Shown in pieces: positions 4,422-27,999 of a stretch of DNA of 37,213 nt. Numbering within the stretch: position 1 is the first letter of the stretch; the number at the start of each line of letters is the position of its first letter. The stretch covers positions 1-37,213 of the forward strand of contig JASEER010000012.1 of the NCBI GenBank assembly GCA_030019475.1. The letters are read 5' to 3'. The notes below the pieces were generated by a model that did not search any database, was not told the origin of the DNA, and worked only from the letters and a program-made list of their open reading frames with translations. The DNA comes from Thermoanaerobacterales bacterium (GTDB taxonomy: Bacteria; Bacillota; Desulfotomaculia; Desulfotomaculales; JASEER01). A program made the position numbers and the translations under genes.

Positions 4422-5957
4422 TCAGTCCTGCTTCTCATCCTGCCTGAAGCGCTCCTCCAGCGCCCGGACCAGCCCCGGGATGGTGTGTTCGTCCGCCACC
4501 ACGTCCACCCGAAGCCCCAGTTCCCGCGCCGTAGCCGCGGTTACCGGACCGATGGCGGCCACCACGGTGGACGCCAGGAGGGCCGGCGCCTGGTCCTCCC
4601 CCAGCGCCGCCGCCAGGTTACGCGCCGTCGACGAACTGGTCAGGGTCACCGCGTGGATGCGCCCCTCGCGGAGCAGTTCGCGCACTTTCGGTGCACGGTC
4701 GGCCACGGGGCGCGTACGGTAGACCGTAACCTCGCAGACGACGGCCCCGGCCGCCGTGAGAGCCTCGTTGAGCGCCTTCGGGGCAATGTCGGTGCGCGGA
4801 AGCAGGACCCTGGCCCCCGGTCGCAGCAGCCCCGGAAGCTGCCTGCCGATTTCTTCCGCGCGGAAGGCCTCGGGCATGAAGGCCACCCGGAGGCCGTAGG
4901 CTTCAAGTGCCTGCCGTGTCGCCGGACCAATCGCGGCCAGTTGGATCCCGGCCAGGTCCCGGACGTCGCCCCCGCATTCGCGCAGACGAGCCAAAAAATA
5001 GCGCACCCCGTTGACACTGGTAAAAACAATCCAGTCAAAGCTGCCCACGTCCGCCAGGGCCTCATCGAGAGGCCCCCAGTCCTCGGGCGGCGTGATGGCG
5101 ATGGTCGGGAACTCCAGCGGCTCACCGCCCCCCGCCGCAATGGCCTGCGCCAGGTCGCTGGCCTGCTCCCGGGCACGGGTCACCAGGACCCGCCGGCCGA
5201 AAAGCGGCCGCCGTTCGACCCACTGCAGGCGGTCACGCAGGGTGCAGACCTCGCCGACGATAATCACGGCCGGGTTCTTAATGCCGGCCTGCGCCACCCG
5301 CTCCCCGATATCGGCCAGAGTACCCACCACGGTGGCCTGCTCGGGCCAGGTCCCCCGGTAAACCACGGCGGCCGGGGTTTCGGGGCGCCGGCCGTGGGCC
5401 GTCAGGCGTTCCATGATCGCCGTCAGGTTCCCCATCCCCATCAGAAAAACCAGCGTACCCGCCCCGGTAGCCAGCTTGGCCCAGTCGATGTTGCTTTCTT
5501 CCTTGGTGGGGTCCTCGTTCCCCGTTATGATGGCCACGGTGGCCGTAAAATCCCGGTGCGTCAGGGGGATGCCGGCATAGGCCGGCGCGGCGATGGCCGA
5601 GGTGATCCCGGGCACGATTTCAAAGGGGATACCCCGCTCGGCCAGGAACTCGGCCTCCTCGCCGCCGCGTCCGAAGATGAACGGATCCCCGCCCTTGAGC
5701 CGGGCCACCCGCCGCCCTGCCTCCGCATGCCCGGCGAGGAGAGCGTTAATCCGGTCCTGGGTCAGGGAATGGCCCTCCGGCGACTTGCCGGCGTATACCA
5801 GTTCGGCGCCCGGCCGGGCGTGGCGAAGCAGCCGCGGGTTGACCAGGCGGTCATAGACGATAACGTCGGCCTCCTGCAGGCACTCCGCGCCCCGGAGGGT
5901 AAAAAGGCCGGGGTCGCCCGGCCCGGCGCCGATCAAATAGACGATGCCCTTATTCAC
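4422..5957 (-). CDS. cobA-hemD: Fused uroporphyrinogen-III C-methyltransferase / uroporphyrinogen-III synthase
   Basis: One 511-residue polypeptide carries two enzymes. Residues 1 to about 250 are SUMT/CobA, making precorrin-2 from uroporphyrinogen III with SAM. Visible motifs are GAGPGDPGLFTLRG, RLKGGDPFIFGRGGEE, VPGITSAIAAPAYAGIPLTH and, near the end of the domain, VVYRGTWPEQ. From about residue 255 the HemD domain begins (RPLFGRRVLVTRAREQ); it cyclises hydroxymethylbilane to uroporphyrinogen III. The fusion joins the branch point to siroheme and cobalamin and is common in Clostridia. I chose GTG at 5957, which overlaps the hemC stop by 8 bases and follows AAGGAGG. Reading further upstream in this frame only runs through hemC sequence. 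Confidence 0.95.
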   Translation of the reverse strand: MNKGIVYLIGAGPGDPGLFTLRGAECLQEADVIVYDRLVNPRLLRHARPGAELVYAGKSPEGHSLTQDRINALLAGHAEAGRRVARLKGGDPFIFGRGGEEAEFLAERGIPFEIVPGITSAIAAPAYAGIPLTHRDFTATVAIITGNEDPTKEESNIDWAKLATGAGTLVFLMGMGNLTAIMERLTAHGRRPETPAAVVYRGTWPEQATVVGTLADIGERVAQAGIKNPAVIIVGEVCTLRDRLQWVERRPLFGRRVLVTRAREQASDLAQAIAAGGGEPLEFPTIAITPPEDWGPLDEALADVGSFDWIVFTSVNGVRYFLARLRECGGDVRDLAGIQLAAIGPATRQALEAYGLRVAFMPEAFRAEEIGRQLPGLLRPGARVLLPRTDIAPKALNEALTAAGAVVCEVTVYRTRPVADRAPKVRELLREGRIHAVTLTSSSTARNLAAALGEDQAPALLASTVVAAIGPVTAATARELGLRVDVVADEHTIPGLVRALEERFRQDEKQD

Positions 5958-6894
5958 GCCTCTCGGGCCCTCCTTCGCGTAGTTCGGCCAGGATCTCCCG
6001 CGCCCCCAGCTGCAGGAGCTTCTCCGCCACCCGCTCCCCCAGGGCTGCCGGGGCTGTCGGGGGACCGACCTCAACGGTCCGTACCACCCGCCGTCCATCC
6101 AGGTCGGAGACCACCGCTTCCAGTACCAGATCCTGGTCCCAGAAGCGCGCCAGGGCGCCGATGGGCACCTGGCAACCGCCTTCCAGGCGGGCCAGCAAAG
6201 CCCGCTCGGCCTCCACGGCGACGCGGCTCTCCGGGTCTTCGAGCAGGCGAAGCAAGCCCAGGATCTCGGCATCGTCCGCCCGCGCCTCGACTCCCAGAGC
6301 GCCTTGGCCCACCGCAGGCAGGCAGACAGCCGTGGAAACAGGCTGGGTGATACGGTTCTCTAAACCTAAACGCTTAAGCCCGGCCCGTGCCAGCACCAGT
6401 GCGTCGACCTGCCCCTCGTCCAGTTTGCGCAGGCGGGTGTGAAGGTTCCCGCGCATGGCCACCAGGTTCAGATCGGGGCGGAAGGCAAGGAACTGTGCCT
6501 GCCGCCGCAGGCTGGAGGTGCCGACCCGCGCTCCCGGCGGCAGGTCCTCCAGCCGGTGCCCGTCCCGCGAAACCAGGGCGTCCCCGGGGTCCTCGCGGGC
6601 GGTCACCGCCCCGATGACCAAGCCCGCCGGGAGGGCCGTCGGCACGTCCTTCATGCTGTGCACGGCTATATCAATGGTACCGTCCAATAAGGCTTTCTCG
6701 ATCTCTTTGGTGAAGAGCCCCCGGTCTCCGATCTTGGCGAGCGCGACATCCAGGATGTTGTCTCCCGTCGTGCTGATGTGTATGACACGGAAGGATGTGC
6801 GGGGGCAGGCCCGCTTCAGGCGCTCGATGACCCAGCGGGTCTGCTCGAGCGCCAGCGCGCTCCCCCGGCTTCCGACCAAGACCTCGTCGCGCAA
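5950..6894 (-). CDS. hemC: Hydroxymethylbilane synthase (porphobilinogen deaminase)
   Basis: HemC polymerises four porphobilinogen units into hydroxymethylbilane using a covalent dipyrromethane cofactor. The cofactor cysteine is visible as C241 in LEGGCQVPIGA and the catalytic aspartate as D83 in HSMKDVP. Other family signatures are GSRGSALAL near the start, GTSSLRR (126-131) and MRGNLHTRL. The 314-residue length is normal. The start is TTG at 6894, preceded by a GGAGG and a second GGAG with about six bases of spacing. It begins nine bases after the hemA stop and overlaps the start of cobA-hemD, so hemA, hemC and cobA-hemD are surely cotranscribed. Confidence 0.97.
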   Translation of the reverse strand: MRDEVLVGSRGSALALEQTRWVIERLKRACPRTSFRVIHISTTGDNILDVALAKIGDRGLFTKEIEKALLDGTIDIAVHSMKDVPTALPAGLVIGAVTAREDPGDALVSRDGHRLEDLPPGARVGTSSLRRQAQFLAFRPDLNLVAMRGNLHTRLRKLDEGQVDALVLARAGLKRLGLENRITQPVSTAVCLPAVGQGALGVEARADDAEILGLLRLLEDPESRVAVEAERALLARLEGGCQVPIGALARFWDQDLVLEAVVSDLDGRRVVRTVEVGPPTAPAALGERVAEKLLQLGAREILAELREGGPERRE

Positions 6895-20476: not shown

Positions 20477-21715
20477 TCATTTCATAAGAATGAGTCGTGT
20501 CCGGGGCAGGGCCGGATCCCGGTCGGTGGTTACGAACACCATCCGCGCCGCCCTTGCCGCCAGGCGGCGGTAAAGGCGCAAAGTGGCCGCGTCCCCGAGG
20601 TCTGCAATGTGGCCGTCGGAAAGGATGACCACCATGTCCTGGGGGGCCATGTGCCGCGCAAGCTGCGCCAGCGCGGGGGCCAGGACGGTCCCCCCGCCCC
20701 CCCGCATTTCGGGTGCCAGGCGGCGCCGGACCTGGGTCGCGGTGTTCACCGTAACCACCGGGTAAGCCTGCGCGTCCCAGGGAATCACCCTCAAAGTACA
20801 GTTCTGCACGCGGGACAGGGACCAGACCTCGGTCAGAAAACGGCCCAGGCTGTGGTCGTCGATCGAGCCGGAGCAATCCACCAGGGTCCAGATGGTCCGT
20901 AACCCCAGGCGCTTGACCCCGGGGAAAGACTCGTAACGGCGGGAAGGGCGCTGCCAGGTCGTGACCACGGTCCGGCCGACCCCCTCCTGCAGGCTCCCTC
21001 TAAGCTGCCGCCTCCAGTCGATCTGCGGCCGCAGGGCGGTCTTGACCGCCCGCGCCAGGTCGCCGGGCATCAGGCCGGCCTGCCGCGCCGTCACCAGGGC
21101 CTCGGCAACCGCTGTGAGCCAGTGCGTCTCCGGGTCGTCCCCCTCATTCAACCCCCCGTCCTGGACCACTTGCCCGCCCGGTTCGGGCCCCCGGTCAAGC
21201 AGGTCCCGGGGCATGCCCTCCGGGGCGCGGAGCGGCTTCGCCGCCGATGTTTCCTCCAGCAGCCGGTATACCTCGGCCGCCGAGGCACGGCGCAGGTCTT
21301 CCAGTCCGATGTCCCGTCCCGCGGTCCTGAGGTATTGCCGTACCCCGGCCGCCGTTACCGGCTGCCCGGCGGCCTTGTCATAGCCGTGAACAAAAAGCAT
21401 CTCATTGACGACCATGTCGGTGGACAGGTTCCAGAGTTCGCGGTCCTTGCCCGACACCTGCCACGGGTGCCCGAAGGCCAGGTGCAGCGCCTCGTGCAGC
21501 AGAATAAAGGTCTTCGCCTCAACCCCGTCCAGGCCGGACCAGAAAAAGGGATTGACAATGACCTCGCCTGAAGACGTGGCGCCTACCGTCTCAATCCGGT
21601 CGTGGACCAAAAGGCGCATCTTCCGCAGGAGCAGGCCCAGGAAGGGGGCGCGCAGGAAAAGCAGGGCCTTGATATCCTCAAGGTCCTGCCGCATACTCTT
21701 GGCCAGCGTAAGCAA
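20477..21715 (-). CDS. Putative metallopeptidase-like/VWA protein (DUF2201 type)
   Basis: This 412-residue protein has two parts. The N-terminal DUF2201 region contains ILLHEALHLAFGHPW, a zinc-peptidase HExxH motif (H74, E75, H78) with further H83. The C-terminal region is a von Willebrand factor A-like domain with the MIDAS motif DCSGS (280-284), a later threonine in GGGGT and the aspartate in ILSDGHIADLG, so metal binding looks intact. Such proteins partner MoxR-type ATPases, as here, where the MoxR gene is 16 bases upstream. The target is not visible. The start TTG at 21715 has GAGGGG about seven bases upstream. Proteolysis is inferred from the motif only. Confidence 0.85.
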   Translation of the reverse strand: MLTLAKSMRQDLEDIKALLFLRAPFLGLLLRKMRLLVHDRIETVGATSSGEVIVNPFFWSGLDGVEAKTFILLHEALHLAFGHPWQVSGKDRELWNLSTDMVVNEMLFVHGYDKAAGQPVTAAGVRQYLRTAGRDIGLEDLRRASAAEVYRLLEETSAAKPLRAPEGMPRDLLDRGPEPGGQVVQDGGLNEGDDPETHWLTAVAEALVTARQAGLMPGDLARAVKTALRPQIDWRRQLRGSLQEGVGRTVVTTWQRPSRRYESFPGVKRLGLRTIWTLVDCSGSIDDHSLGRFLTEVWSLSRVQNCTLRVIPWDAQAYPVVTVNTATQVRRRLAPEMRGGGGTVLAPALAQLARHMAPQDMVVILSDGHIADLGDAATLRLYRRLAARAARMVFVTTDRDPALPRTRLILMK

Positions 21716-21731
21716 GCTTTTCCCCTCCCCG

Positions 21732-22979
21732 CTACTTCAGCAGGTCGCCGACCGCCGCGTACGCATCCCGGACCTTGTGGGACTGGGCGCACATCTCGAG
21801 GTAGACGGCGGCGTGCCAGGGCGCCGTAAGACGGTTGGCCAGGGTGAACCACAGCAGGGTTAAATACTCCCGGCTCTGAGCGGCCACGGCCTCCAGTAGC
21901 CCGACCGCCGCGCTGACCGCCGGGCGAACGGCGGCTCTCGCCAGTGGCATTTCGATCTCCGCCGGACAGTCCCCTGCGATCTCGCCGCCGGCTTCCGCCA
22001 ACCTTTGCCCGATGATGACGACCGCGATATAGCGTTCATCGACATCCAACCGTTCGAAGAGCGCCGGCTCCTGCAGGAGTTCCTCGTAAGTAGGGACGGA
22101 ACTCTGCCTGAAGGCGAAAAGTTTTTCCCCGACTTCAGGGCCCAGGGCCGCAACGCAGAGGATACGGATCGACGCGCTGTCCAGGCCGGCTTCCGCGGCC
22201 GCCGCCAGGTCCCGCGCCAGGAAGGTGTAGCTGCGGGGTGTCGGAAAACCTTCCATGGTCTCCCCTTCCTCGGGCACCCGGCAGAAGTCGTCGGGGAACC
22301 GGGAAACGTAGGCGAACACCTTTTCGTCGCTTCGCGGGTAATGGGCGCCCATCCAGCGCAGCCACTCGCGCACCGCCGGCGGTCGCACGCCGAAGCGGTA
22401 GACCCGGTTGAGAAGGGGCGCCGGCAGAAGGTTGGCGATCGAACTCTCCTCCGGCCGGTTGCCGGCGGCCACCACCTGCACCTGCGGGCCGAAAGCGGTA
22501 AAGCCGGCCGCCCTGTCCTGGATGAGCTTGTAGGCCGCGGCCAGCACATCGGGGCGCTGGACATTAGTCAACTCATCCAGGAAGAGAATCCCCGGCACCT
22601 CTGAGAGGAGCACGGCCCACTGGGGCGGGTGATAGACCAGTTGCTTGCGGCCCCCGACGGTAACCGTGACCGGGCGGCCCAGGAGATCCACCGGCTCGGT
22701 CTCAGTCAGCCGCAGATCCACGAACATGAAATAGCGGTCGGGCGCGGCATATAAGTCGGCCAGGTCGATGCCGTCGAGATGCTGCCTTTTGTATTCTACA
22801 AGACGGCGGCCAAGCATGCCAGCGGTTTCTTCCGCGGCTTCCCTTACCAGCACGCTCTTGCCGATTCCGGGCGGGCCGAGAAGGAGCACACTCCGCCGGG
22901 CATCAGTACGGTACAGGAAAAAGAGCAGTTCCTTAACGGCTTCGGGCGTCAAAGCATCGGCTCTGTTCAAGCGACGCAC
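21732..22979 (-). CDS. MoxR-type AAA+ ATPase
   Basis: A 415-residue ATPase with Walker A GPPGIGKS (35-42), Walker B GILFLDELTN (D135, E136), a sensor-1-like VVAAGNRPEE and the sensor-2 region FPTPRSYTFLARDL. The absence of extra domains and the neighbouring VWA protein place it in the MoxR group, whose members act as chaperone-like remodellers with VWA partners. The first start, GTG at 22979, overlaps the LRV gene by 47 bases. A TTG at 22970 has AAAGGGGG at eight bases and is a good alternative, reducing the overlap to 38. The overlap on one side and 16-base gap on the other indicate one operon of three genes. Confidence 0.9.
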   Translation of the reverse strand: MRRLNRADALTPEAVKELLFFLYRTDARRSVLLLGPPGIGKSVLVREAAEETAGMLGRRLVEYKRQHLDGIDLADLYAAPDRYFMFVDLRLTETEPVDLLGRPVTVTVGGRKQLVYHPPQWAVLLSEVPGILFLDELTNVQRPDVLAAAYKLIQDRAAGFTAFGPQVQVVAAGNRPEESSIANLLPAPLLNRVYRFGVRPPAVREWLRWMGAHYPRSDEKVFAYVSRFPDDFCRVPEEGETMEGFPTPRSYTFLARDLAAAAEAGLDSASIRILCVAALGPEVGEKLFAFRQSSVPTYEELLQEPALFERLDVDERYIAVVIIGQRLAEAGGEIAGDCPAEIEMPLARAAVRPAVSAAVGLLEAVAAQSREYLTLLWFTLANRLTAPWHAAVYLEMCAQSHKVRDAYAAVGDLLK

Positions 22980-24219
22980 CCCCTTTTTCCATGGCGATCA
23001 TCGTCCGCAGAAAGGACGGGAAACAAGGATGGTGGGACAGATCCCGTAAGACCATCGCCGTGTCGCTGGTAAAGGTCCAAAGGCAAACGGCGGCGGCCAT
23101 AGCCGTAACAGCATCCTCGGTGCAGTTCGGATGCGCCAGCGCGCGCAGCCGCACCGTCCGGTAGCTGTCGGTCAGGAGGACGGCCAGCACCCCGGGGGGG
23201 CAACCGGGGTTTTCACTTACCGCCAAGCGCACCCCCCCTTCTCGGTCGCGGGCCAGGTCCCGCAGCACCCAGGCCGGCGCTGCGGCATTGGCCGCCACGC
23301 GGGCCCGCACAACCGGGCGCGTGTCCAACGCCTGCCCGGCCAGTACCCCCGGCGGGGTCCGGCGGTTCGCCGCCACAGCCTCTCTTACCCGGGGGTTGCG
23401 GTCGAAGGCCAGCGCCGCGAGAATCACCCGGGGACAGCGCCGGTTCCGCGCCACCGCCTCCCGCACCTGCGGGCCGCCGTCCCGCGCCAGGTCCGAAAGC
23501 AAGGATACCGGGGAGGCGGCGTTGGCGGCGATGCGGGCCAGGAGAGAAAGGTCAGGATTGGGCGGAAGGGTATGCGGGGCATAGTCATCCATGTACACGA
23601 CACGGAACGCCAGGGGTCTCCGTTTCGCCGCCAGCCGGAGCAGCACCTGAACCGGGGCGGCAGGGTTGGCGCTGACCGCCAGGCGCAGGGAAAAGCTCGG
23701 GGCCTCGGCCAGGTCGGCCAGGACCCACGGCGGGCAGGCCGGGTTCAGGGCCGCCGCCTCCTGTAAGACTTCGTCCGGTGAACAGGCCAGGGCCACAATC
23801 TCATCCTGCGGAAGAGACGGGTTGGCCGCCGCCCGCCTGACGACCCAGTAATCGGAGTCCGCCGCCAGTAACCGCAGCGTTTCCGGCGGAGCCGACGGGT
23901 TCGCCGCGACCGCCCCGCGCACGGCGCTGCTGGGGTCATCGGCCAGTTGCCGGCTGAGCCGGGCCGGGCAGGAGGGGTTTGCCGCCACCGTCTCGCGCAG
24001 GCGGGCATCGCTATGACCGGCGAAGGAGGCCAGGACGGCCGGCGGGCAGTTCGGGTGCGAGAGCACCCGGCGCCGGAGCGAGAAGTCGCCCCCCACTGTC
24101 ATACGGGCCAGGATATCCGGCGTGCATCCGGGATGGCCGGCGGCAAAATGCCTCAGCCAGAGATCGTTGCTCCCGGCGAACGAGCGTAACAGGCCGGGCA
24201 GGTACGGCGCCCCGTTCAT
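22933..24219 (-). CDS. Leucine-rich-repeat-variant (LRV/HEAT-like) repeat protein
   Basis: This protein of 428 residues is nearly all repeats of about 24 residues with the core VRxAVAANPxCPPxVLAxLA. I count about 13 units from HPGCTPDIL to HPNCTEDAV, including NPSCPARLS, NPACPPWVL and NPGCPPGVL. One irregular insert between units 7 and 8 (RVVYMDDYAPHTLPP) breaks the array. The pattern matches the LRV family first described in Azotobacter, but the N-terminal Cys cluster that binds [4Fe-4S] there is not seen. It is a superhelical scaffold for protein binding, probably the adaptor of the downstream MoxR/VWA pair. The ATG at 24219 uses GGGGTG at eight bases, inside a hairpin arm. Confidence 0.85.
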   Translation of the reverse strand: MNGAPYLPGLLRSFAGSNDLWLRHFAAGHPGCTPDILARMTVGGDFSLRRRVLSHPNCPPAVLASFAGHSDARLRETVAANPSCPARLSRQLADDPSSAVRGAVAANPSAPPETLRLLAADSDYWVVRRAAANPSLPQDEIVALACSPDEVLQEAAALNPACPPWVLADLAEAPSFSLRLAVSANPAAPVQVLLRLAAKRRPLAFRVVYMDDYAPHTLPPNPDLSLLARIAANAASPVSLLSDLARDGGPQVREAVARNRRCPRVILAALAFDRNPRVREAVAANRRTPPGVLAGQALDTRPVVRARVAANAAAPAWVLRDLARDREGGVRLAVSENPGCPPGVLAVLLTDSYRTVRLRALAHPNCTEDAVTAMAAAVCLWTFTSDTAMVLRDLSHHPCFPSFLRTMIAMEKGGASLEQSRCFDARSR

Positions 24220-24226
24220 GAGCAAA

Positions 24227-24260
24227 ACACCCCGGTATTAGTCTATTAACACCGGGGTGT
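24227..24260 (-). promoter_or_regulatory. Hairpin covering the LRV gene's ribosome-binding site
   Basis: ACACCCCGGT (24227-24236) and ACCGGGGTGT (24251-24260) are perfectly complementary with a 14-base AT-rich loop. On the minus strand the 3' arm contains GGGGTG, the ribosome site of the LRV gene, eight bases from its ATG. The same hairpin is followed by TTTT, so it could also act as a weak terminator for spoIID. Confidence 0.6.
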
Positions 24261-24291
24261 AAAAATATACTATTTGGGCGAATCGTGAAAC

Positions 24292-25844: not shown

Positions 25845-27587
25845 TTAAGCGCGTGCGGCGATGCGCGCGCGGTAACGGCTCAGAAGATCCCCCAGGACAT
25901 CCTCACGCAACGTTCCCTGAAGGGTGGACGTCTCGAAATAACGCCGGGGAACGGTGACATGCGAAAGATCGAAACCCATGCGTTTTTTGGCCGCCAGCTT
26001 CAGGTCGAAGATCTCCGCCCCGAGCTGCGCCAGGTCCTCGGCCCCCGCCGGGACACCAAGGGCGTTCAGCGTCCGGACGACCGTCGGCGGGTCGTAAATG
26101 TTGCGGGCGAAGAGGCAGACCCCCAGGGAGTTTAAGACGTTCCGCCACTCTTCCTCCGCGATCAGCCGGTCGACGACCCCTTCAGGGTCTTCCCCCAGCC
26201 CGGGCTCCTGGTCCAGGGCATAGCCGGCGTTGCACAGGTGGGAATGCCGCGCCCCGACGGTCTGCCCGAGGATGAAGGCGTAGCCGGTATGGTAGCCGGC
26301 CATTTCATTGTTCCCCAACAAGCAGGCGAAGTCCCGCCCGCCCAGTTCGGCCGTCGCCCGGTGCAGGCCCCGGGCGAGAACGGCGTAAAGGGGGGTGGGC
26401 TGCTCCACCAGCCCGTGGAGAGCGGCAAGGTACCCATCCAGGTCCCCGAACCTCAACTCGGCGCCGAGGTCCGCGGTGTGGATCAGCCCCTTTTCCAGGG
26501 CCTCGGTCGCCCAGCCCAGGACAACCCCGCTGGAGATGGCGTCCAGGCCGAGGGCCTCGACCGCTTCGATCAAGGCATAGACATCCCCCGGCTCGGAAAG
26601 TCCCAGGAAGGATCCCAGGGCATAGATCAGTTCGTAGTCGTAGGCCAGCGTTATGCTTTCGTATTCGTGCCCTTCGGCGAAACTCCGGCGGTAAAGGCCC
26701 ACATGGATACAGCCCACGGGGCAGCCGGGACAGGCAAGCTTACGGATCAATGTCTTTTGGGCGAAGGCTTCCCCGCTTATCCGCTCGGCGCCCTCGAACC
26801 GGTTTTCCCGCAGGTTACGTGTCGGCAGGGCGCCCATCGCGTTGAGGCTCAAGACATTCCCCGCCGTGCCGAGCCCGTGATACTTTTCCATCACCTCGGT
26901 ATCCACGGCGCGCGCATGGATCTCTTCGTACACGGCGCGGTAGGCCCGGCGGTCCGGGATGGGAATACTCTTCTCCCCGTGGACCACCATCGCCTTCAGG
27001 TTTTTCGCCCCCATCACCGCGCCCAGGCCCAGACGCCCGAAATGCCGGACGGTATCGACGTTGACCCCGGCGAAGGCCACCCCCCGCTCCCCGGCCGGGC
27101 CGATCCGCACGATGCTCCGAAAACCGCGCCCCTGCTCCCACTCGCGCAGGCACCGGCCGGTCTCTTCGCAGTCCAGCCCCCAGAGGCCCCTGGCGTCTTT
27201 GAACGACACCCCGTCCCGGTCCACAACCAGGTAGACCGGCCGTTGGGCCCTACCGGTCAGGTAGACGGCATCGTAGCCGGCAAAGCGCAGGGCCATGGCC
27301 AGGCGCATGCCCGCGTAGCTTTCCCCCCATTCGCCGGTCAGGGGCGAGCGAAAGACGGCCGCCGTCTTCGTGGCCAGGGGAAAGACCGTGGTAAGGGGGC
27401 CGATGCCCAGGACAACCGGCTGTTCGGGCGCGGAAGCCTCCGCGTCCGGCACCAGGCCTTCAGTAAAGAGCTTGGCCGCCACGCCGACCCCGCCCAGGTA
27501 GCGGGCCAGTTCCGGGCGCTCGTCCACCCGCCATTCCCGCCGGCCGAGGTCGATATACAAAACCCGGACAGTGTTGGCGTCAAGCAT
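25845..27587 (-). CDS. Aldehyde:ferredoxin oxidoreductase family protein (tungsten enzyme)
   Basis: This protein of 580 residues belongs to the AOR family, which oxidises aldehydes, or reduces acids, with ferredoxin using a tungstopterin and one [4Fe-4S] cluster. The N-terminus VLYIDLGRREWRV, GRLGLGAVMGAKNLKAMVV for cofactor binding, the cluster cysteines in ACPGCPVGC, and the fourth cysteine near the C-terminus in NSLGVCLFARN are present. GARHSHLCNAGYALD is also typical. The substrate is not readable. ATG at 27587 overlaps the ferredoxin stop by 8 bases with AGGAGA nine bases upstream. The adjoining polyferredoxin is the expected electron partner. Confidence 0.93.
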   Translation of the reverse strand: MLDANTVRVLYIDLGRREWRVDERPELARYLGGVGVAAKLFTEGLVPDAEASAPEQPVVLGIGPLTTVFPLATKTAAVFRSPLTGEWGESYAGMRLAMALRFAGYDAVYLTGRAQRPVYLVVDRDGVSFKDARGLWGLDCEETGRCLREWEQGRGFRSIVRIGPAGERGVAFAGVNVDTVRHFGRLGLGAVMGAKNLKAMVVHGEKSIPIPDRRAYRAVYEEIHARAVDTEVMEKYHGLGTAGNVLSLNAMGALPTRNLRENRFEGAERISGEAFAQKTLIRKLACPGCPVGCIHVGLYRRSFAEGHEYESITLAYDYELIYALGSFLGLSEPGDVYALIEAVEALGLDAISSGVVLGWATEALEKGLIHTADLGAELRFGDLDGYLAALHGLVEQPTPLYAVLARGLHRATAELGGRDFACLLGNNEMAGYHTGYAFILGQTVGARHSHLCNAGYALDQEPGLGEDPEGVVDRLIAEEEWRNVLNSLGVCLFARNIYDPPTVVRTLNALGVPAGAEDLAQLGAEIFDLKLAAKKRMGFDLSHVTVPRRYFETSTLQGTLREDVLGDLLSRYRARIAARA

Positions 27588-27999
27588 CGGCCGCACTCTC
27601 CTCCATTACCAGCACGTCATGGGGACAGAAACGCGTGCACGTCCCGCACTGAATGCAGACTATGGCCCGACCGTCCGTATCGAGACGGATGGCCCGCACC
27701 ACGCAGGCCTCCACGCAGGCCCCGCACCCGCTGCACTTGTTGCGGACGAATCTCACCCCTCCGCCCGGCCGCGGGAGGAGGGCCCCCGCCTGGCAAGCCG
27801 CGGCGCAAGGGGCATCCCGGCACCCGATGCAGACGTCCGCGGCCAGTTTGCTCTGCAGGCCGCCGCGCGTCCGGATCTGGACGGCGCTGTGGGACGGCGA
27901 ATAGTCACCGTAAACGGCGCGCGCGCAGGCCAGCATACAGGAGTAGCACGCGATACAGCGGGCCATGTGTTTTACTGTCAGAACCTTGGGCACGGGCAT
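27580..27999 (-). CDS. Four-cluster [4Fe-4S] ferredoxin-like electron carrier
   Basis: A 139-residue protein with four cluster motifs: CIACYSCMLAC, CIGCRDAPCAAAC, CSGCGACVEAC and CIQCGTCTRFCP. Spacing matches the HycB/DMSO-reductase-type iron-sulfur subunits. It lies directly upstream of, and overlaps, the AOR gene, a pairing seen for AOR proteins with dedicated ferredoxin subunits. It presumably passes electrons between AOR and another carrier in the cytoplasm; no membrane segment or signal peptide is visible. The ATG at 27999 gives MPVPKVLTVK. Confidence 0.92.
   Translation of the reverse strand: MPVPKVLTVKHMARCIACYSCMLACARAVYGDYSPSHSAVQIRTRGGLQSKLAADVCIGCRDAPCAAACQAGALLPRPGGGVRFVRNKCSGCGACVEACVVRAIRLDTDGRAIVCIQCGTCTRFCPHDVLVMEESAADA

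Follow-up and report, generated by a model that had tools for sequence, protein, structure and literature searches.

The closest described relative of the locus considered here is the metallopeptidase-vWA/MoxR pair of group 2.2 jumbo phages, for which a role in virion assembly has been proposed (Iyer et al. 2021, PMC7824862); gp25 of N4, an N4-like phage, is a vWFA protein (PMC4193335). Nine MoxR subfamilies, TM0930 among them, are listed by name in PMC11432383. In the NorQD pair, NorQ provides the motor; NorD attaches to cNOR by way of its MIDAS, and its linker is remodelled by NorQ activity (PMC9976466, PMC13036017). In the ternary systems of Kaur et al. (2020), MoxR and a VWA protein are joined by a third component (VMAP, iSTAND, FtsH or a beta-propeller), often with TPR, HEAT, pentapeptide or propeller repeats (PMC7159879). 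The locus described here is a trio of genes, LRV-MoxR-DUF2201, on the minus strand (20477-24219) of a 37,213-nucleotide stretch of DNA from a Thermoanaerobacterales bacterium (contig JASEER010000012.1), hereafter the window. The MoxR/metallopeptidase-VWA pair itself is already known (PMC7824862). What is new is that the third gene beside it varies by lineage, yet encodes solenoids of unrelated folds in about five separate clades (LRV, pentapeptide, LRR, TPR, DUF4116, MORN-like).

The three open reading frames adjoin each other, and Pfam bears out the LRV, MoxR and DUF2201 identities that a preliminary description had given them, as well as their flanking genes, spoIID (SpoIID, PF08486) and queA (QueA, PF02547). 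The overlap of 47 bases between LRV and MoxR and the gap of 16 bases between MoxR and DUF2201, also given there, are right if MoxR starts at the GTG at 22979; the alternative TTG at 22970, 8 nucleotides past a GGGGG, makes the overlap 38 bases. The features are as follows:

22933..24219, minus strand: LRV solenoid protein, 428 amino acids, ATG start, about 14 repeats of 26 amino acids (Pfam, period 26, AlphaFold); proposed client-recognition arm
21732..22979, minus strand: MoxR-like AAA+ ATPase, 415 amino acids, start GTG 22979 or TTG 22970 (PF00004/PF07728)
22854..22877, minus strand: Walker A GPPGIGKS of the ATPase (translation)
20477..21715, minus strand: DUF2201 protein, 412 amino acids, with a zincin-like N domain (residues ~10-261) and a C-terminal VWA domain (residues ~273-411) (Pfam, AlphaFold, Foldseek)
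21482..21496, minus strand: HEALH (HExxH), residues 74-78; further conserved polar residues H83 and D100
20864..20878, minus strand: MIDAS core DCSGS (D280, S282, S284), with T343 at 20687-20689 and D367 at 20615-20617

The LRV protein matches PF01816 at 5.6e-24 (83.3 bits against a cut-off of 21.6) and PF25591 at 2e-18, and its AlphaFold model is a continuous all-helical superhelix (pLDDT 88). Foldseek returned HEAT scaffolds for this model (the PP2A A subunit, importins) at low TM-scores, as generic helical solenoids would, so no specific fold kin was accepted. The only informative PDB sequence match (3.8e-5) is the LRV protein of Azotobacter vinelandii (PDB 1LRV), which shares the LRV repeats and has an N-terminal 4Fe-4S region. 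No counterpart of that region was found in the window protein, which has no such Pfam match and whose repeats start at the N-terminus. We know of no MoxR or VWA link for the A. vinelandii protein.

The ATPase exceeds the Pfam cut-offs for PF00004 and PF07728, which carry the labels AAA and AAA_5. The name MoxR, used in the preliminary description, thus does not come from Pfam itself; it rests on homology to genes annotated 'MoxR family ATPase' and on the VWA partner. Walker A and B, sensor 1, the arginine finger and sensor 2 are all present beside the adjoining VWA gene; among eight aligned sequences, Walker A is GxPGIGKS throughout and K41, D135/E136, N174, R192 and R249 are invariant. The DUF2201 protein combines PF13203 (2.8e-28; 99.8 bits against 23.2), described in the Pfam search as a putative metallopeptidase domain, with PF09967 (4.8e-9; 36.8 bits against 26.4). 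Its AlphaFold model has two well-formed domains (pLDDT 79), the second of which is a VWA fold, with CLCA1, Ro60 and midasin among the Foldseek matches in the PDB; these matches are dominated by the VWA domain and do not inform on the N domain.

How does the trio compare with the described systems? With the phage pair it shares a MoxR-like ATPase beside a protein that is metallopeptidase-like at its N-terminus and VWA at its C-terminus. In N4-like phages the two-gene architecture is the same and both proteins are homologous, the window proteins matching the N4-like phage families phrog_1297 (9.7e-48) and phrog_1314 (5.2e-51). (The label 'HNH endonuclease' carried by phrog_1314, the DUF2201 family, looks wrong.) The window's DUF2201 protein (P0003) matches 350 phage records, and an IMG/VR search gave few phage homologues of it and none of the LRV protein. 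The phage pair differs from the trio in that the two loci examined have no solenoid gene and carry two small genes between the ATPase and the VWA gene, as in the Schitoviridae phage MN812691 (L153, 16899-18133).

The Kaur systems also combine MoxR and VWA with a third component. There, however, the repeats mostly form part of the vWA protein itself, in effector position, the third core is VMAP or another protein, and the MoxR proteins carry N-terminal aromatic motifs (PMC7159879). In the window the third gene is LRV, and the WxhapG and PsWRxa motifs described in that paper are absent from the approximately 30 residues before Walker A. We found no MoxR-vWA ternary system described with DUF2201 or LRV; judged by title, apparently none of the four papers that mention DUF2201 treats its function, and none pairs it with MoxR. 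NorQ/NorD, CoxD/CoxE and RavA/ViaA resemble the trio in joining a MoxR motor to a VWA co-chaperone that acts on a client; to our knowledge, none of them has a zincin-like domain or a solenoid gene. Unlike the trio, NorQD and CoxDE have a known client in the same operon, and RavA has a known interactor.

In a survey of 113 genomes of the order, the LRV type and the close DUF2201 type occur together and intact in eight: the window, G020, G037, G049, G058, G060, G061 and G077 (in G077, LRV and most of MoxR sit at the ends of two contigs). The order LRV-MoxR-DUF2201 is kept in every locus where it can be read. The close LRV type was not seen in these genomes without the VWA protein, the sole exception, in G021, being a different and weakly similar LRV protein. 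In G040 and G001 the trio is decaying, with LRV and DUF2201 broken, and G078 retains only a scrap of DUF2201. The G001 remnant precedes queA as in the window; MoxR is gone, and pieces of LRV and DUF2201 are left. In the decayed copies (L030 4930-5491 and L029 8242-10222) all three genes are rotting jointly. Since this has happened in two relatives, the module is dispensable.

The trio is found in four chromosomal contexts. In the window and G001 it precedes queA; in G049 and G058 it lies near rph/rdgB-like genes; in G020, G040 and G077 a YdjC-like gene adjoins it, and in G037, G060 and G061 a glycosyltransferase-like gene does, the last three names having been assigned by eye. The three gene trees recover the same well-supported groups and disagree solely about the node that connects them (support 63-67% in the MoxR and DUF2201 trees, 91% in the LRV tree). 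All three genes are under purifying selection: the ratio of nonsynonymous to synonymous change (dN/dS), obtained by a counting method with distant pairs near saturation, is 0.18-0.50 for LRV, 0.04-0.20 for MoxR and 0.08-0.27 for DUF2201. In a scan of 84,980 species, the only named hosts of the close type were Desulforudis sp. (SURF_60, J_13, Kmv41), Ammonifex sp. SURF_55 and Bacillota DeMMO5_7, which is a lower bound, as the scan needs exact short peptides and omits genomes near the window; judging by these isolate names, the hosts are mostly deep-subsurface lineages. Because the gene order is kept in seven other genomes and dN/dS is well below 1, the sequences support the trio as one real, travelling functional unit rather than a product of chance. 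The preliminary description had likewise treated the three genes as one unit, and LRV does lie beside MoxR/VWA in every close relative and decays together with them. The two findings named there as fatal, an LRV gene unlinked in relatives and a lost HExxH, did not turn up in the LRV clade.

What might such a unit do? Because of the anatomy of the trio and the precedent of NorQD, we read it as a dedicated three-part, ATP-driven remodelling machine for a client recognised by the solenoid, a reading to which we give an even chance of being right. The MoxR ring would be the motor, and the DUF2201 protein, with its predicted metal-binding, zincin-like domain, would be a co-chaperone that grips a partner or the client through the MIDAS of its VWA domain. 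The LRV solenoid, product of the first gene of the operon, would recognise and deliver the client, and ATP hydrolysis would pull or twist the DUF2201 protein so that the client is reshaped. Clipping of the client by the HExxH that the LRV clade keeps intact may come on top of this, with remodelling, not cutting, as the conserved core of the activity. Gene content, motifs, linkage, joint loss, purifying selection and a travelling element close to the promoter are observed; that the three proteins form a complex, what each part does, and in which order and direction they act, we infer. LRV changes faster than the other two, as expected of a recognition part: the seven other loci share 38-45% identity with the window version, compared with 61-67% for MoxR and 44-55% for DUF2201 across the clade.

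The wider family offers a second view of the solenoid. Of 398 genomes of the phylum, 28 carry PF13203 and five PF01816, and only in this order do the two lie together. Plasmids, pSYSA of Synechocystis among them, and N4-like phages also encode related DUF2201 proteins close to a MoxR gene. When the operon neighbours of MoxR-DUF2201 pairs from other lineages were surveyed, a repeat solenoid was the third gene in about five clades, the LRV clade included. A pentapeptide protein takes this place in one clade (L031, L032, L034) and LRR_5 or TPR proteins in another (L134, L195, L198; L137), where L194 has a 1174-residue gene in the same place that lay outside the repeat scan. A DUF4116 clade has repeats of 22 residues (L135, L196, L199, L200, L202). 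L136, sister of the LRV clade, encodes a 306-residue protein with eight 28-residue WY..G..HR.DGPA repeats, MORN_2-like (5733-6653, minus strand), whose gene overlaps the DUF2201 gene by 17 bases. The solenoid gene is the first of the operon in most of the repeat clades and the last in L136 and L198. The DUF4116 repeats were considered as divergent LRV repeats and rejected: there is no profile similarity, and the two are therefore not visibly one drifting family.

As a control, 89 proteins encoded farther from the pair in these loci were scanned, and no such repeat family matched more than one of them, a result that concerns multiple matches, since single-match families are not all listed. A solenoid in five of about 15 clades would arise by chance with a probability of 8e-6 to 6e-4 at a background of 2-5%; as both the clades and the partner types were delimited with the data in view, this enrichment is a lead and not a test. 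We tentatively propose, at somewhat less than an even chance, that MoxR-DUF2201 is a general chassis that takes interchangeable solenoids of unrelated folds as separate operon partners, with the protease active or not. The idea that LRV recognises the target, advanced in the preliminary description, gains from the unrelated solenoids beside the same pair in other lineages. If solenoids are indeed swapped on one motor-VWA chassis, this would be a natural case of the retargeting of an AAA+ machine. MoxR-VWA pairs are widespread although most of their clients are unknown, and a separately encoded solenoid is a natural bait for the client. N4-like phages, too, commonly carry the pair.

Several observations weigh against a remodelling machine guided by a solenoid. 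The third gene is not recognised as a repeat protein in the phage, Pseudomonadota and f7 clades, and some clades have no third gene at all; a solenoid is thus not obligatory beside DUF2201. Relaxed constraint alone could account for the fast evolution of LRV. Finally, the LRV clade never lacks the glutamate of HExxH, an observation that fits proteolysis at least equally well.

The main rival is indeed an ATP-dependent protease, in which LRV selects the client, MoxR unfolds it and the zincin domain of DUF2201 cuts it. Zincin-type HExxH, with its glutamate, is invariant in the eight intact LRV-type loci (HEALH, with one HETLH), the Pfam description of PF13203 points the same way, and peptidolytic processing has been proposed for the jumbo-phage pair (PMC7824862). 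Among 67 DUF2201 relatives, HxxxH and the next histidine are each kept in 66, the MIDAS residues D-S-S-T-D in 65 and the glutamate in 52, and the conserved aspartate is also nearly invariant. The 15 losses of glutamate fall on about four independent branches (the LRR/TPR, pentapeptide and Pseudomonadota clades, and L135), where T, Q, M, H, S or V stands in its place while the metal ligands and MIDAS are retained; there, the machine presumably works without catalysis. Because the glutamate is lost while the histidine ligands, the aspartate and MIDAS stay, the metal site and MIDAS are the family-wide constants, and catalysis is probably not the core function of DUF2201 proteins. No solved relative of the N domain was found. 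The cutter of the preliminary description is weakened for the family; in the LRV clade itself, because the glutamate is always present, proteolysis is possible as an activity secondary to remodelling. As an account of the trio as a whole, the protease is possible, though on the unlikely side. The lineages that have lost the glutamate make it feasible to separate remodelling from proteolysis by comparing homologues. In three Pseudomonadota loci (L184, L185, L190) the motif reads HH[VI]LH, without the catalytic glutamate, and the pair lies behind a gene for 228-262 amino acids with likely membrane helices.

Improbable is a conflict or defence module, in which the LRV arm senses an invader and a ternary MoxR-VWA assembly activates the metallopeptidase as effector. 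The patchy distribution, loss and decay of the trio would suit such a role, and other MoxR-vWA ternary systems with variable repeats have been proposed as conflict systems (PMC7159879). On pSYSA (L151, 11365-13281 and 17451-19729), a 638-residue LRV protein, 36% identical, is encoded about 4 kb from MoxR-DUF2201, in a separate operon, on a stretch that also carries type I-D CRISPR and toxin-antitoxin-like genes. However, PADLOC 2.0 gave no confident match for the trio proteins (the best, 0.0045, in the AAA region only), and the flanks yield generic defence-library matches (methylase, WYL) and no recurring defence system. The contexts are ordinary core chromosomal ones with largely congruent gene trees, the identities of MoxR and VWA are unlike those of fast-diversifying effectors, and there is no VMAP, iSTAND, FtsH or propeller component. 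The self-contained conflict system suggested in the preliminary description is thus not upheld. Very unlikely is a dedicated maturase of one metalloenzyme such as the neighbouring AOR, a task that the MoxR-VWA pairs NorQD and CoxDE do perform and that the named hosts, as subsurface Bacillota, might suit: AOR, rejected as the client, neighbours the trio only in the window (25845-27596) and in L028 (5369-7324), is absent beside it in other contexts (L025-L027, L139, L140), and no other enzyme gene is common to all contexts.

Immediately upstream of LRV lies an element that travels with the trio:

24227..24260, minus strand: 34-bp inverted repeat ACACCCCGGTGTTAATA-NNN-TAATACCGGGGTGT, 7 nucleotides before the LRV ATG; its 3' arm contains a Shine-Dalgarno-like GGGGTG
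24264..24269, minus strand: TATATT, a candidate -10-like box just ahead of the inverted repeat, with no clear -35

Both arms are identical in G049 and G058, despite upstream genes unlike those of the window, and within three mismatches the repeat is unique to these three among the 113 genomes. TATAnT stands at the same place in most relatives. The other loci have a diverged layout of a TATAnT-like box, a CACCCC-like arm, an A/T-rich loop, a GGGGTG-like arm and the start codon, in which the GGGGTG-like arm could act as a ribosome-binding site. RNA folding is significant in the window (z-score -6.6), G058 (-5.5), G049 (-5.5) and G077 (-3.0), marginal in G001, G037 and G061, and absent in G020, G040 and G060. 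The inverted repeat may be an operator or a hairpin that masks the Shine-Dalgarno sequence. A clade-wide hairpin of the latter kind was not accepted, as the fold is not significant in all loci and the diverged sites align too poorly (MAFFT) for covariation. A spoIID terminator was rejected as a full account, as the identical element precedes LRV behind other upstream genes.

Between queH and queA, the window has not only spoIID and the trio but also an AOR and 4Fe-4S ferredoxin gene pair (25845-27999, minus strand); in G001, AOR, ferredoxin and spoIID are missing from the corresponding place. Only G049 and G058 have a WYL/WCX regulator gene immediately ahead of the trio (L026 7154-8350, L025 11912-13336); its place is taken in G020 and G077 by a divergent response regulator. 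The WYL regulator was dismissed as a general binder of the inverted repeat, since the other trio genomes encode no homologue that compares with it (31% at best in the window).

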